64,000 nt of DNA from Stieleria magnilauensis (GTDB lineage: Bacteria; Planctomycetota; Planctomycetia; Pirellulales; Pirellulaceae), in the NCBI GenBank assembly GCA_007753675.1, contig CP036432.1:2330394-2394393 (forward strand). The letters are read 5' to 3'. The position numbers were made by a program, and so were the translations under genes. The first letter of the stretch is position 1. Each line of letters opens with the position of its first letter. Shown in pieces: positions 13,425 to 31,556 of the stretch. Below the pieces are notes generated by a model. That model was not told where the DNA came from. It made no database searches and worked only from the letters and a program-made list of their open reading frames with translations.

Positions 13425-15086
13425 CTAAAACTGAAACGGGAATTGTTTGACGCTGATCACGTCAGGCATCACGACCACAATGGTTCCCAGGTCCGGATGT
13501 CCGGTAGCCGCTGTGTAGCTGTATTCGGTTGTCGCTCCCGGCGGCACGACTTCATTCCTGCGATACGGCGGACCGTAGTGGCCGTTCCCATTGATCGCCG
13601 GTTGAATTTGGCTGGGATGAAACACCCAATCGGGGCCGCGCACGGCAACTTGTGTGTCATAGACCGGACGTAGGGGGACCGAACTGTCCAGCGTCGGTCC
13701 TGCCGTCACGGAGGTGATTTGGAACCAAGCAAAGTGCAACGGGCCCGTGGGCTCGTTATCGAAGACCGAGGATCGCGCCGTCGGCGTCAATTTGTTTAAA
13801 CGTCGACTAATTGTCGGAGGGACGACAGTCGGGGCACTTGAATCAGGAATGGAATATGGATCGCGGCGATACTCCTGCCGTATCAAGCAAATCCAACCGC
13901 CTTCCTTCACGTCCGGGTAGGTCGCGCCAGAAGTTCGAAAGATGAATTCTCCTCCTCCGCCTCCACGAATCACGTTCGCCGCATAGGTAACATATCCCAT
14001 CACTTCACCGGGAAAGGTCAGCTGGTTGTCCGGAGGATTCTGTGAGCCGGGAACCGCCCAAGAGTACGGTCGCAGTTGATGTTTCAAGTCGTCGCCACTC
14101 GGCAGAATCTCGCCTCCGGGAACGGTCACCAAGCGACGGTCCTTCATCGTGACCACTGCGGCGTCGTATGAATTGCTTCCCCTGGCCGACTGGCTCATCA
14201 TCACCATCGATGAGTATCGCCCGGTGACCGTCGACTTGGTCAACGATCGCATGTCATTGGTGCTGCGTTGGACAAACAACCCGGCACCGAGCGTTGAGTC
14301 CGACGCGGTGACGATCGACAGGTCATCGCCCGAGGTCGAGAAGAAACGCGACGCCGCAAGCGCCGGGGTGTCGTTTTGTGCGATCGCCGGCAATGAGAGT
14401 CTGACAAACCGGGGCGTATTCCAACGAACTGTGCGGGCAGGAATGTTGGCACCTGCTCCCGGTTGTGATCGATTGGTGTATGCCGGCCACGTCCACGTTT
14501 CCGCGTGCGACTCGGCGATCGCATTTGCGGGGGAAATCGCCGGAACGTACTGCGGGTCATAACAAGGAAACAACGTGCGGTCGTATCCGTTGGCGTCGGC
14601 GGACGATCCGTTGAATCGCAACGTATTGGCCGAGGAAAGAAACCAAGGATCGATGCAAAACGCTCGTGGCAATTGATCCAACGACACACTGGTGAATCGA
14701 TCGAGCGTCCCGGGCAGTGCGGCGCCGTTGGAGTAAAAGCCTTTGTCTTCCAGCACGACGGTCGGATAAGGAGGTGATGTCGTGTAGAAAAAGTTCTGCG
14801 TCGTGTGCGCGTTTTCCGCTTGCGTCAAGTACGAAATGTTTTGATTCAGCTTGGCCAGATCGGTCGCGATTCGATTGTTGACTTCTTCAACCGCGCGATC
14901 GTCCTGCAGCGCCATCGCGGCATTGTTCGTCGCGACCGGCAGGATGAACGCGACGCCCATCAATCCGATCGTCAACACGCCGATCGCGAACAGAACTTCC
15001 ATGATCGACAGACCGCGGCGACGAGGTGAATGTCGCCGTGACGTCATTGGATCGGTAGGGATTGGAGTCGTCTTCGGCATAATCAT
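13425..15086 (-). CDS. PilV/GspI-like prepilin, 553 residues
   Basis: Prepilin-type protein: leader ending HSPRRRG, the cut site, then LSIMEVLFAIGVLTIGLMGV with Glu5 and a long hydrophobic helix (mature residues 1-22). The soluble part is about 500 residues, much longer than a typical GspI. The start ATG at 15086 overlaps the stop of the preceding gene in an ATGA arrangement, which decides the start against a frame that stays open a further 240 bases upstream. The following giant gene begins about 144 bases downstream. Inferred role: minor pseudopilin of the locus. Confidence 0.82.
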   Translation of the reverse strand: MIMPKTTPIPTDPMTSRRHSPRRRGLSIMEVLFAIGVLTIGLMGVAFILPVATNNAAMALQDDRAVEEVNNRIATDLAKLNQNISYLTQAENAHTTQNFFYTTSPPYPTVVLEDKGFYSNGAALPGTLDRFTSVSLDQLPRAFCIDPWFLSSANTLRFNGSSADANGYDRTLFPCYDPQYVPAISPANAIAESHAETWTWPAYTNRSQPGAGANIPARTVRWNTPRFVRLSLPAIAQNDTPALAASRFFSTSGDDLSIVTASDSTLGAGLFVQRSTNDMRSLTKSTVTGRYSSMVMMSQSARGSNSYDAAVVTMKDRRLVTVPGGEILPSGDDLKHQLRPYSWAVPGSQNPPDNQLTFPGEVMGYVTYAANVIRGGGGGEFIFRTSGATYPDVKEGGWICLIRQEYRRDPYSIPDSSAPTVVPPTISRRLNKLTPTARSSVFDNEPTGPLHFAWFQITSVTAGPTLDSSVPLRPVYDTQVAVRGPDWVFHPSQIQPAINGNGHYGPPYRRNEVVPPGATTEYSYTAATGHPDLGTIVVVMPDVISVKQFPFQF

Positions 15087-26391: not shown

Positions 26392-26866
26392 GTTAAGGCG
26401 CTACCCGTTTCGCTGCGGAGCAGCGAAACGAGGCGGCTAAAGCCTGCACACCAGCGCACGTTGGTGTCCAGCCTTCAGGCGCATCCCCCACGCGCTGCGA
26501 AGCAGCAAGACGGGCGGCTGAAGCCTGCACACCAGCAACCGTTGGTGTCCAGCCTTCAGGCGCATCCCCCACGCGCTGCGAAGCAGCAAGATGGGCGGCT
26601 GAAGCCTGCACACCAGCGCACGTTGGTGTCCAGCCTTCAGGCGCATCCCCTCGCTGCGGAGCAGCGAAATGAGGCGGCTAAAGCCTGCACACCAGCAACC
26701 GTTGGTGTCCAGCCTTCAGGCGCATCCCCACGCGCTGCGAAGCAGCAAGACGGGCGGCTGAAGCCTGCACACCAGCAACCGTTGGTGTCCAGCCTTCAGG
26801 CGCATCCCCTCGCTGCGGAGCAGCGAAATGAGGCGGCTGAAGCCTGCACACCAGCAACCGTTGGCC
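26392..26866. repeat. Six tandem copies of a roughly 80-bp palindromic repeat
   Basis: The word AAGCCTGCACACCAGC recurs at 26440, 26521, 26602, 26681, 26761 and 26840 (spacings 81, 81, 79, 80, 79). Each unit pairs CTGAAGCCTGCACACCAG with a nearby GTTGGTGTCCAGCCTTCAG, giving an imperfect hairpin. Between units there are two alternating short palindromes (CGCTGCGGAGCAGCG or GCTGCGAAGCAGC). There is no spacer diversity, so it is not CRISPR. The array fills the divergent spacer between the PilB-like gene and the UvrA-like gene and stays open in the UvrA frame, which can mislead start prediction. The rest of this spacer (26180-26391) shows nothing recognisable. Confidence 0.9.
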
Positions 26867-29952: not shown

Positions 29953-29983
29953 GGGGCAGGAAGATGGAGAGCAGTGGAGAGGG

Positions 29984-30014
29984 AGACAAGAAAATGGATG
30001 ACAAGAAAATGTTG
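29984..30014. repeat. Left 31-bp inverted repeat of the GxxExxY cassette
   Basis: Contains GACAAGAAAATG twice, 15 bases apart, and matches the reverse complement of 30561-30591 at 30 of 31 positions. It lies just after a purine-rich stretch that follows the UvrA-like stop codon. Confidence 0.85.
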
Positions 30015-30023
30015 CCGGTCCGC

Positions 30024-30561
30024 TCAGCACCGTCGGATCGTTCGGAATGTCACGGTGTCACTGGCGATGTTGAGCCACTGTACGACAGGAATCTCCACGT
30101 AACGAAGAAATCGGAGGATGTTTTTCAGGTAGGATTGTTTTTGTTTGTTGATTGCAGTGACTTTTACGATGGAGCCTTATGGTCTCCGGACGTAAGTTCA
30201 CAAGTTTGCCACGCTGGAGTTCACAGAGCATGAGGTAATTCAGCAATTGTGCTCGGTGCCTTGAATGGAGGCGTTCAACCGCTTTCCACTCGAAGACAGC
30301 CACCGCGTCAAAGACAGTGTCGATAAAATACTCATGACGAAACCTGTCTTGTCTAATGACGATTGGCACTTCTACTTGCGTCTGTTGGAAACTCTCACAA
30401 ATCTTCGTCTGATAGATCTTTTCTCGGAAGAACGGTCCCATGGTCTTCCGAACTGAAAACACACGCCCCATCACCCTGTAGCAGACGTCCGCAAAAACCT
30501 GCTCCTCGACCGCGCGGACTTCGCCCAGGACCTCAACCGGCATCACTCCAAACGTCCACAC
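30024..30561 (-). pseudogene. GxxExxY-family protein gene, frameshifted near its 3' end
   Basis: The 5' portion encodes a GxxExxY (PD-(D/E)XK_3-like) protein: MGPFFREKIYQ (the family's G/F-x-x-E-x-x-Y region), RHEYFIDTVFDAV, the nuclease-like FEWKAVERLHSRHRAQLLNY and LQRGKLVNLRPET. After this, near 30176-30182, the first frame loses family character and runs on to a stop at 30058. A shifted frame stays open and reads GSIVKVTAINKQ, then FLRYVEIPVVQWLNIASDTV and TFRTIRRC, ending at 30024. I interpret this as one single-base indel in a once-intact gene. GTG at 30561 or ATG at 30543 could start it; GGAG precedes the ATG closely. The biochemical role of the family is not established; the residues suggest a nuclease fold. 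Confidence 0.7.
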
Positions 30562-30591
30562 AACATTTTCTTGTCACCCATTTTCTTGTCT
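30561..30591. repeat. Right 31-bp inverted repeat of the GxxExxY cassette
   Basis: Reverse complement of 29984-30014 with one mismatch. Its inner edge touches the GTG start of the GxxExxY gene and its outer edge lies nine bases beyond the rbsC stop codon. Confidence 0.85.
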
Positions 30592-30599
30592 ACTTTTCT

Positions 30600-31556
30600 T
30601 CACCCCGACCTCCTGCCCCAGCGGACTCGGAGGGCGTCGAGGAGAACGGCGGCGATGATGACGGCACCGGTGATCAGCTGTTTGATCGCGTCTTCGACGC
30701 CCAACTGCGCCAGGCCGGATTGCAGCACGGCGATGATCAGGACGCCGATAAAGGACGCGACCACGCTGCCGCGTCCGCCCATCAAACTGGTGCCGCCGAT
30801 CACACAGGCCGCGATCGCCGAAAGCTCTAACCCGATCGCCGCGTTGGGATCCGCACTGGACAATCGGCTGGTTTGCGACAGTGACGCCAGACCACACAGC
30901 AGCCCCAAAATCATGAAGGCGGCGATGGTGATCGGTGCCGTCCGAATCCCGCTCATCCGAACCGCTTCTTCGTTGGTCCCGATGGCAACGCAATAACGCC
31001 CGAAGACGGTTTTCGTCAGTAGGAACTGCCCCGCAATCACCGTCATCACCGCGACGAGAAAAGCCGGTGAGAGCGGCACCCACTGCAACGGTTCCCCGAA
31101 CGCTTCGACGCGGCTGCCGATGTACATCGTCTGTGAATCCGTGATCACCTTCGTCCCGCCGCGTGCCATTTCCAACATGCCCAGGCTGACGATGAACGAT
31201 GGGATCGAAAACCAAACCGAGACAAACCCGTTGAACAATCCACACAAGCCCGTGACCAGCAAACACACCGAAAACGCCGCCGGCAAACTCCACTCGTGTC
31301 GCACCATCAACACCCCGATCACCGCCGACCCGAGCGCGATCAATGATCCGACCGACAAGTCGATTCCGGCGACGATCAAGACCAACGTCATCCCGACCGA
31401 CACGAAGATCAGGTCCGGATTGGAGTTGGCAATCGTGACCAGCGTCTGGGTCTGAAAGAAGTTCTTTGAACTGAGCGAAAACACCGCGATCAACAGCACC
31501 AACACTCCCAAGAGTCCGGCGTACTGCAAAAACGATTGAGTCAACTTTTGTTTCAT
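30600..31556 (-). CDS. rbsC: Ribose-type ABC transporter permease
   Basis: A 318-residue polytopic permease of the BPD_transp_2 family. It has hydrophobic segments throughout and the RbsC-typical LIVAGIDLSVGSLIALGSAV near residue 80 and AIGLELSAIAACVIGGTSLM near residue 240. It forms the sugar channel with the RbsA ATPase. The start ATG at 31556 overlaps the rbsA stop as ATGA, which rules out the 25-residue upstream extension. It is the last gene of the operon and is followed after nine bases by an inverted repeat of the GxxExxY cassette. Confidence 0.92.
   Translation of the reverse strand: MKQKLTQSFLQYAGLLGVLVLLIAVFSLSSKNFFQTQTLVTIANSNPDLIFVSVGMTLVLIVAGIDLSVGSLIALGSAVIGVLMVRHEWSLPAAFSVCLLVTGLCGLFNGFVSVWFSIPSFIVSLGMLEMARGGTKVITDSQTMYIGSRVEAFGEPLQWVPLSPAFLVAVMTVIAGQFLLTKTVFGRYCVAIGTNEEAVRMSGIRTAPITIAAFMILGLLCGLASLSQTSRLSSADPNAAIGLELSAIAACVIGGTSLMGGRGSVVASFIGVLIIAVLQSGLAQLGVEDAIKQLITGAVIIAAVLLDALRVRWGRRSG

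Follow-up and report, generated by a model that had tools for sequence, protein, structure and literature searches.

The closest described systems in which a nuclease-type gene stands beside its own dispersed repeat are the REPIN-RAYT systems, or REPtrons. In excerpts from PMC3116915, REPINs are gene-less inverted doublets that occur as hairpins, together with tandem clusters and decayed singlets, and a genome may hold several repeat groups, each with its specific enzyme. Excerpts from PMC8266576 describe co-evolution of TnpA-REP with the REP repeat and action of the enzyme on folded single strands, and those from PMC3733652 describe REP palindromes that carry GTAG or CGTC tags. A similar arrangement was found in a 64,000-nt stretch of the Stieleria magnilauensis genome (contig CP036432.1, positions 2,330,394 to 2,394,393; hereafter the window, numbered from its first letter), in which a gene of the GxxExxY family lies between two inverted arms. 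We read this cassette as a truncated copy of a two-part unit, a long GxxExxY protein with its own repeat, which would be a partnership of the REPIN/RAYT kind built on a Cas4-like PD-(D/E)XK pseudo-dimer. We give this reading a probability of about 0.62. The repeat of the unit is an asymmetric word of 11-12 bp. Two or more tandem copies of it stand next to the gene, in arms or as whole hairpins.

The word population appears to resemble in structure the REPIN population of HUH enzymes as it appears in the excerpts from PMC3116915. The systems differ in that the enzyme here is a PD-(D/E)XK-like pseudo-dimer, not an HUH enzyme, and in that twin A/G-rich words, each asymmetric, take the place of a GTAG- or CGTC-tagged palindrome (excerpts from PMC3733652). 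Moreover, gene and repeats here are exchanged at fixed loci, in both orientations. No Y1 transposase family appeared among the Pfam matches of the window protein and three long proteins.

The genome holding the window (10.77 Mb) is designated G000; other G numbers are compared genomes, and L numbers are fetched loci. The cassette sits between the ends of a uvrA-like and an rbsC-like open reading frame (ORF), which are convergent (names from the initial annotation and from reading of the ORFs). Its parts are as follows.

29984..30014, plus strand: left arm, with inward twin words GACAAGAAAATG at 29985-29996 and 30000-30011
30561..30591, minus strand: right arm, with inward twin words at 30564-30575 and 30579-30590 (CATTTTCTTGTC on the plus strand)
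30058..30543, minus strand: truncated long-GxxExxY gene, 161 aa when counted from the conserved ATG, consisting of the catalytic N-terminal domain (residues 1 to ~122) and a frameshifted tail
30178..30179, minus strand: junction of a 271-bp internal deletion relative to the intact G616 copy (L243 6198-6468 missing)
30024..30178, minus strand: what remains of the C-terminal domain, out of frame and reaching to the old stop codon, by comparison with the G616 copy

The arms and their tandem words were present as annotated. In each arm, two exact copies of the 12-bp word stand at a spacing of 15 bp, and the arms enclose the gene in inverted orientation; extended to 38 nt, the arms are 89% complementary, with 546 nt in between. 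Apart from the GxxExxY gene, no ORF lay between the arms, either in the window or in the G616 copy so far as it was read. No transposase ORF was present there, in agreement with the initial annotation.

The family assignment of the enclosed gene also held. The window protein scored 67 bits against TIGR04256 (GxxExxY; cut-off 35) and 68.3 bits against PF13366 (PDDEXK_3; cut-off 22). It is not, as had been proposed, a complete gene that fills the space from arm to arm. Position ~30178 joins L243 6197|6469, with 271 bp of the G616 copy gone, and because of this deletion the frame departs from the family after about residue 122. The old stop, at 30024-30026 and 9 nt from the left arm, is in another frame. 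The start does not touch the right arm either. The GTG that does (30561) is not conserved, and the family start is the ATG at 30543 (MPVEV...), 17 nt inside the arm.

The closest relatives of the window protein are ~265 aa long with an N-terminus MP(I/V). This subfamily consists of two GxxExxY/PD-(D/E)XK-like halves, with the active site in the first half only. The N-terminal domain is a full member of the GxxExxY family (TIGR04256/PF13366), and TIGR04256 matched 39 of 39 long relatives at E <= 0.001. The second half is a degenerate duplicate, which the short GxxExxY proteins lack. The first half has a Cas4-like fold, with SSO0001 as the closest solved structure. On the other hand, the score of the window protein against PF01930 (Cas4) was 13.4 bits, under the cut-off of 22.7, and TIGR00372 (Cas4) matched one of the 39 long relatives (E 7e-4). 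The unit further differs from Cas4 in its degenerate second half and in the lack of another gene in the window cassette.

Residues D75, E85 and K87, which from knowledge of the family we take to be the PD-(D/E)XK active site, were invariant in all 39 long relatives and kept in the window copy. The catalytic residues are conserved and the gene is under purifying selection, with a ratio of non-synonymous to synonymous divergence (dN/dS) of 0.14 over the 121 codons of the remaining domain, a pairwise value against G616 that covers both lineages. To our knowledge, GxxExxY proteins have no known role.

A profile was built from eight long relatives and used with a match cut-off of E 1e-40. It gave at least 71 matches in 45 of 241 family-level genomes; the best 10 candidates or fewer were scored per genome, and match counts are lower bounds. 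A sample of 392 genomes from the phylum had, among the matches listed, two outside the family that covered the full length (G292 and G212).

Twin words adjoined the long genes. The set comprised 72 long genes with flanks, namely 70 of the 71 profile matches (a partial one in G537 was excluded) and two from the phylum sample; one was without upstream sequence, and two were skipped in 200-bp tests for short flanks. Arms were scored by the skeleton GRYNNNNNRAT, as twin 11-mers at a spacing of 13-18 bp, with tandem arrays counted as several arms. Skeleton twin words lay within 350 bp of 53 of the 72 genes, on both sides in 30. There were 225 such arms in 50.4 kb beside the genes, as compared with 19 in 87.1 kb at a distance of 1.2-1.9 kb in the same loci, where they occurred at 5 of 72. 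The reversed skeleton gave no arms in the long-gene flanks. An inverted 11-mer shared by the two sides, with at least two copies on each, was found at 44/72 long genes and in 9/72 mismatched flanks.

A generic, skeleton-free test for twin 9-mers on both sides within 200 bp was positive for 44 of 70 long genes, and skeleton arms were present over this distance at 50 of the 70. The tests were repeated on loci found later. A named genome collection supplied 43 further loci, of which L290 (C-terminal match only) was excluded; the other 42 were 13 duplicates and 29 new loci, and three with stops were left out of a set designated A4. The 29 new loci, with Opitutus, Opitutales, Verrucomicrobiaceae, Lentisphaerae, Pontiellaceae, Kuenenia and a KSB1 bin among their record titles, were positive in 25 cases by the generic test and in 16 by the skeleton.

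Short GxxExxY genes, of which 57 were listed (L111 and L117 not among them) and 56 scored, gave 4/56 by the generic test and 0/56 by the skeleton. Neighbouring ORFs gave 1/56 and 6/56. The link between arm word and GxxExxY genes that had been considered in the initial annotation was found in many genomes, and it is to the long two-domain subfamily.

After clustering of 100 proteins at 60% identity, 66 non-redundant long genes had enough flank, and 59 of these were positive by one test or the other. Several of the seven negatives showed degenerate words by eye. Among 70 genes with skeleton arms, the arms flanked the gene on both sides in 42 cases and on a single side in 28; ten had the form seen in the window, with the gene within one pair of inward arms, and 11 lay between complete hairpins. 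Several long genes were adjoined by long head-to-tail word arrays.

The words were specific to the gene. The top word was GACAAGAAAAT at locus A of G616, GGCAGAATGAT and GGTAGGAAGAT at loci B and C of G000, and GGCAAAGGAAT in G051; that of G024, GGTTATAAAT, falls outside the strict skeleton and came from the shared inverted 11-mer test. Long genes of the same genome differed in top word in 24/24 pairs, in 23 of them by at least two letters. Word and protein co-varied: word distance grew with protein distance (Mantel r 0.317, n=69), and the maximum of 2000 permutations was 0.123. Fifty-one genes at <80% protein identity had 31 distinct top words, many of them one letter apart.

Gene and words were exchanged together at fixed sites. 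At locus C, the near flanks of G618 and G619 were mostly 87-100% identical per 100 bp, and the eight windows of the gene were 41-73% identical. The drop extended from the start codon to ~100 bp beyond the stop; there was also an unalignable stretch 0.6-1.3 kb upstream. The same pattern was seen at locus B between G000 and G619, where the drop started ~200 bp before the start codon, at the words. The locus C proteins fell into two types, one in G000, G148 and G618 and the other in G616, G619 and G615, with dN of 0.36-0.40 between and 0.05-0.09 within types. The word tracked the type in six of six genomes, being GGTAGGAAGAT in the former three and GGTCAAAAAAT in the latter. These types run counter to relatedness: at locus B there is little divergence between G618 and G619 (dS 0.11), and their uvrA-like genes are 98 and 99% identical to that of G000.

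The cassette at the window site, between uvrA and rbsC, was found in either orientation and at different stages of decay, with serial deletions. G616 has an intact copy, G148 a full-length one, and G615 a full-length one with one stop. G618 and G619 share a large deletion between CCGGAAG repeats, and the deletion in G000 is a different one. The gene is co-oriented with uvrA in G615, G616, G618 and G619 and opposed in G000 and G148. The G148 protein shows a dN of 0.09 to G615 and of 0.46-0.50 to G616. Since the G000 copy is of the G616 type and the G148 copy of the G615 type, at least two inversions would be needed.

In G127 the site carries related twin-word arms with ~100 bp between them and no gene. 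A few bases beside the left arm resemble the gene leader by eye, and these arms may once have enclosed the gene. G614 has another gene there (deoC-like, by eye) and no arms. Neither rbsC nor arms were found in the 1.3 kb after the uvrA-like gene in G620, G617, G111, G086 and G138; G036 was not resolved at this site.

All six genomes of the genus that keep the gene or a remnant have it at this same site, which indicated that the unit does not hop freely within the genus. Conservation of position and flanks, which the initial annotation had regarded as speaking against mobility, was thus found in part. Its suggestion of a transposon-like unit stood as far as the gene-word unit is exchanged, occurs in both orientations and has reduced forms. 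Likeness to miniature inverted-repeat transposable elements (MITEs) and one-gene insertion units lies in the deleted gene-bearing forms and the arm-bounded gene-less form at one site. The inverted repeats at 44/72 long genes, not at locus C, are likewise terminal, as in a transposon. Unlike MITEs, the window unit has no transposase ORF and is replaced at fixed sites rather than freely inserted; no target-site duplication was seen, in alignments that were blurred.

The arm word is dispersed in G000. There were 53 copies of the 12-bp word and 64 of the twin word (<=3 mismatches), and none of either reversed control. Twin words less than 200 bp apart formed inward-facing pairs in 12 of 12 cases. 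Of 51 arms in fetched G000 loci, 22 faced an inverted word at a distance of 13-95 bp on the inner side (limit 300 bp), and there was no such word on the outer side. For the other 29 no partner word was found, both window arms among them, with their own partner 546 nt off. The genome-wide copies, the inward pairs and the partner-word counts identify the window arms as members of a dispersed, partly hairpin-forming repeat family.

The genus comparison covered 14 genomes and three word families, as counts of twin words:

GACARGAAAAT: G000 56, G148 26, G615 23, G616 78, G618 56, G619 51
GGCARRAYGAT: G000 186, G148 528, G615 366, G616 601, G618 201, G619 373
GGTCAAAARAT: G000 121, G148 67, G615 113, G616 43, G618 56, G619 234

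The seven genus genomes in which no long gene reached E 1e-40 had none of the three families. In the family-level sample, GACARGAAAAT twin words occurred in 13 of 149 genomes, 10 of which had a long gene.

Several results weigh against our reading. The presence and absence of words across the genus may be a single clade contrast. G620 has one long gene and only 5 GGTCAAAARAT twin words, with 0 of GACARGAAAAT and 0 of GGCARRAYGAT. GGTCAAAARAT is abundant where the locus C word is now GGTAGGAAGAT (121, 67 and 56 in G000, G148 and G618), and G618 and G619 retain 56 and 51 GACARGAAAAT twin words though the cognate gene has lost its catalytic core. GACARGAAAAT twin words were present with no long gene found in G099 (8) and G101 (1), and with only a long-gene fragment in G082; G127, with no long gene, has arms of a fourth, related word. 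Skeleton words at locus C stand on the downstream side only. Positions 1-3 and 9-11 of the skeleton were fixed by the analyst's own pattern, and the generic test was positive in 61/286 mismatched long-gene flanks, because the words resemble one another. The duplication expected in the initial annotation at empty sites was not seen: there was none at six aligned polymorphic hairpin sites of G000 and G616, in alignments that were blurred, and no clean empty site with a duplication in a 280-kb comparison of the two, in which the intergenic DNA was too diverged.

In one alternative, which we consider unlikely, the words would form a repeat family of their own that another enzyme (e.g. RAYT) or recombination spreads, and the long genes would merely lie within or beside them, the words serving as homology for exchange and inversion. 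The number of words genome-wide, their presence in G099, G101 and G127 without the long gene, and the different palindromic repeat at an orthologous G616 site would fit it, and homologous recombination alone suffices for inversion and exchange between repeats. Against it stand, in an analysis that included no search of these genomes for RAYT genes, the word specific to each long gene, where arms are missing from short GxxExxY genes and from most neighbouring ORFs, the switch of word with protein type at a fixed locus, and the recurrence of the association at independent loci of other groups. A locus of defence or competition is still less probable. Here cassettes would be swapped under diversifying selection, like restriction-specificity alleles, and the words would be the recognition sequence on incoming DNA. 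Closely related species whose flanks are similar do carry two deeply diverged types at a single locus, the words vary, and the fold is of a nuclease type. However, the host genome itself holds dozens to hundreds of words, the window unit has no second ORF such as a methyltransferase, three of three proteins had no PADLOC family match, and at the window locus the gene has decayed in several species.

The explanation to which we give the least weight places the system at the RNA level, with a protein that binds or trims transcribed hairpins (autoregulation or 3'-end processing) and dispersed copies as regulatory hairpins. Inverted arms would form RNA stems, close word pairs point inward, and the window copy lies between convergent ORFs, all as this explanation would have it. 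On the other hand, a stem does not need words kept as direct tandem repeats and long head-to-tail arrays, the fold is like that of Cas4 and restriction endonucleases, and the cassettes are exchanged as DNA.

Under the favoured reading, a unit of long GxxExxY protein and cognate repeat, it is less likely that the nuclease-like protein is a sole passenger of the repeats, as had been proposed, than that it is their partner enzyme. From the sequence patterns we infer that the protein binds the word, acts on it as a nuclease, and by this action causes its spread. The target that the long protein recognizes would be its own twin word, probably where the DNA is folded or single-stranded, since double-strand cuts at all of the dozens to hundreds of genomic copies would be lethal. 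By analogy with TnpA-REP, action on folded single strands, or nicking, would be more plausible than double-strand cutting. A pseudo-dimer with one active site would suit an asymmetric word. Nicking or cutting at the words may promote copying, inversion and exchange of the DNA that they bound, and cutting there would account for inversion, array growth, exchange and loss. The gene-bearing cassette would spread to relatives by taking the place of their cassette at the same site, and the gene-less hairpins with the same words that populate the genome can probably arise from it by internal deletion.

Further features were seen beside the cassette and its relatives. A possible degenerate outer word pair flanks the window arms:

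29953..29974, plus strand: possible degenerate outer word GGGGCAGGAAGATGG, directly 3' of the uvrA-like stop, 73% complementary to 30598-30619
30598..30619, minus strand: possible degenerate outer word on the rbsC-like side, of the same inverted pair

A GGCAGAAAAATGG-like outer word lay within 70 bp of 29 of the 51 dispersed G000 arms. Heptanucleotide tandem arrays (CTGAAAC, CAGCTAA, CAAAACT, TTGAAAA and others) were often found on the inner side of solitary G000 arms (inner side 10/51, outer side 1/51, background 120-bp windows 11/2333; L007, L009, L012, L013, L018, L023, L034, L035, L037 and L039). At L234 ~13759-13830 (G616 ~9.2138 Mb), a site orthologous to a G000 arm is taken by a different palindromic repeat (GGGATAGGCTTCCAGCCTGTC...GACAGGCTGGAAGCCTATCCC), so that unrelated repeats occupy one position. 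The uvrA-like ORF as listed (window ~26430-26860) begins in repeats of a peptide, RLKPAHQRTLVSSLQAHPPRAAKQQDG. This part probably reflects a DNA repeat that lies upstream of the true gene, and repeats like it are present in the fetched G148 and G616 stretches.

Elsewhere, G082:C434:17198-17709 (L077) holds an N-terminal long-gene fragment (query residues 1-91) ~200 bp from a GACAGGAAAAT twin word, which is another decayed cassette. At G013:C2:542500-544750 (L048, L156), hairpins and a ATGCCGATTGA-like copy of the gene start recur in tandem every 161-162 bp around a long gene. In the draft contigs of L177, L184, L186, L202 and L214, the match to the long gene lies within 0-115 bp of the contig end; this would be expected of words that, as high-copy repeats, break assemblies. 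A more distant ORF of 273 aa in G000 (G000:C1:5308729-5309472; L002, L006, L042) has two PF13366 matches and is flanked by GAACCCACGGATGGCAGCGC arrays inverted across the gene (inverted-repeat score 68, shuffle maximum 33). It is possibly a sister system.

The open-access literature, the sole literature covered and that in part, yielded no link between GxxExxY and repeats; the term GxxExxY occurs there in two papers, PMC8934634 and PMC12085832. The cassette appears to represent a kind of selfish partnership between gene and repeat that had not been described before. A broader proposal, to which we would give slightly less than even odds, is that a domain-duplicated Cas4-like nuclease drives a REPIN-like hairpin population across Planctomycetes, Verrucomicrobia and relatives. 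Its word would have diversified into dozens of variants on one skeleton, and gene and word would pass between species as homing-like cassettes, making a class of selfish elements independent of HUH, DDE, tyrosine and serine enzymes.

One branch of GxxExxY gains a concrete candidate substrate. If the proposal is true, the RAYT/REPIN type of life, a gene with dispersed hairpins, arose again on an unrelated enzyme, and the dozens of skeleton variants would be a natural code of protein-DNA specificity. This natural variation of the words would be material for reading how a PD-(D/E)XK pseudo-dimer specifies DNA.
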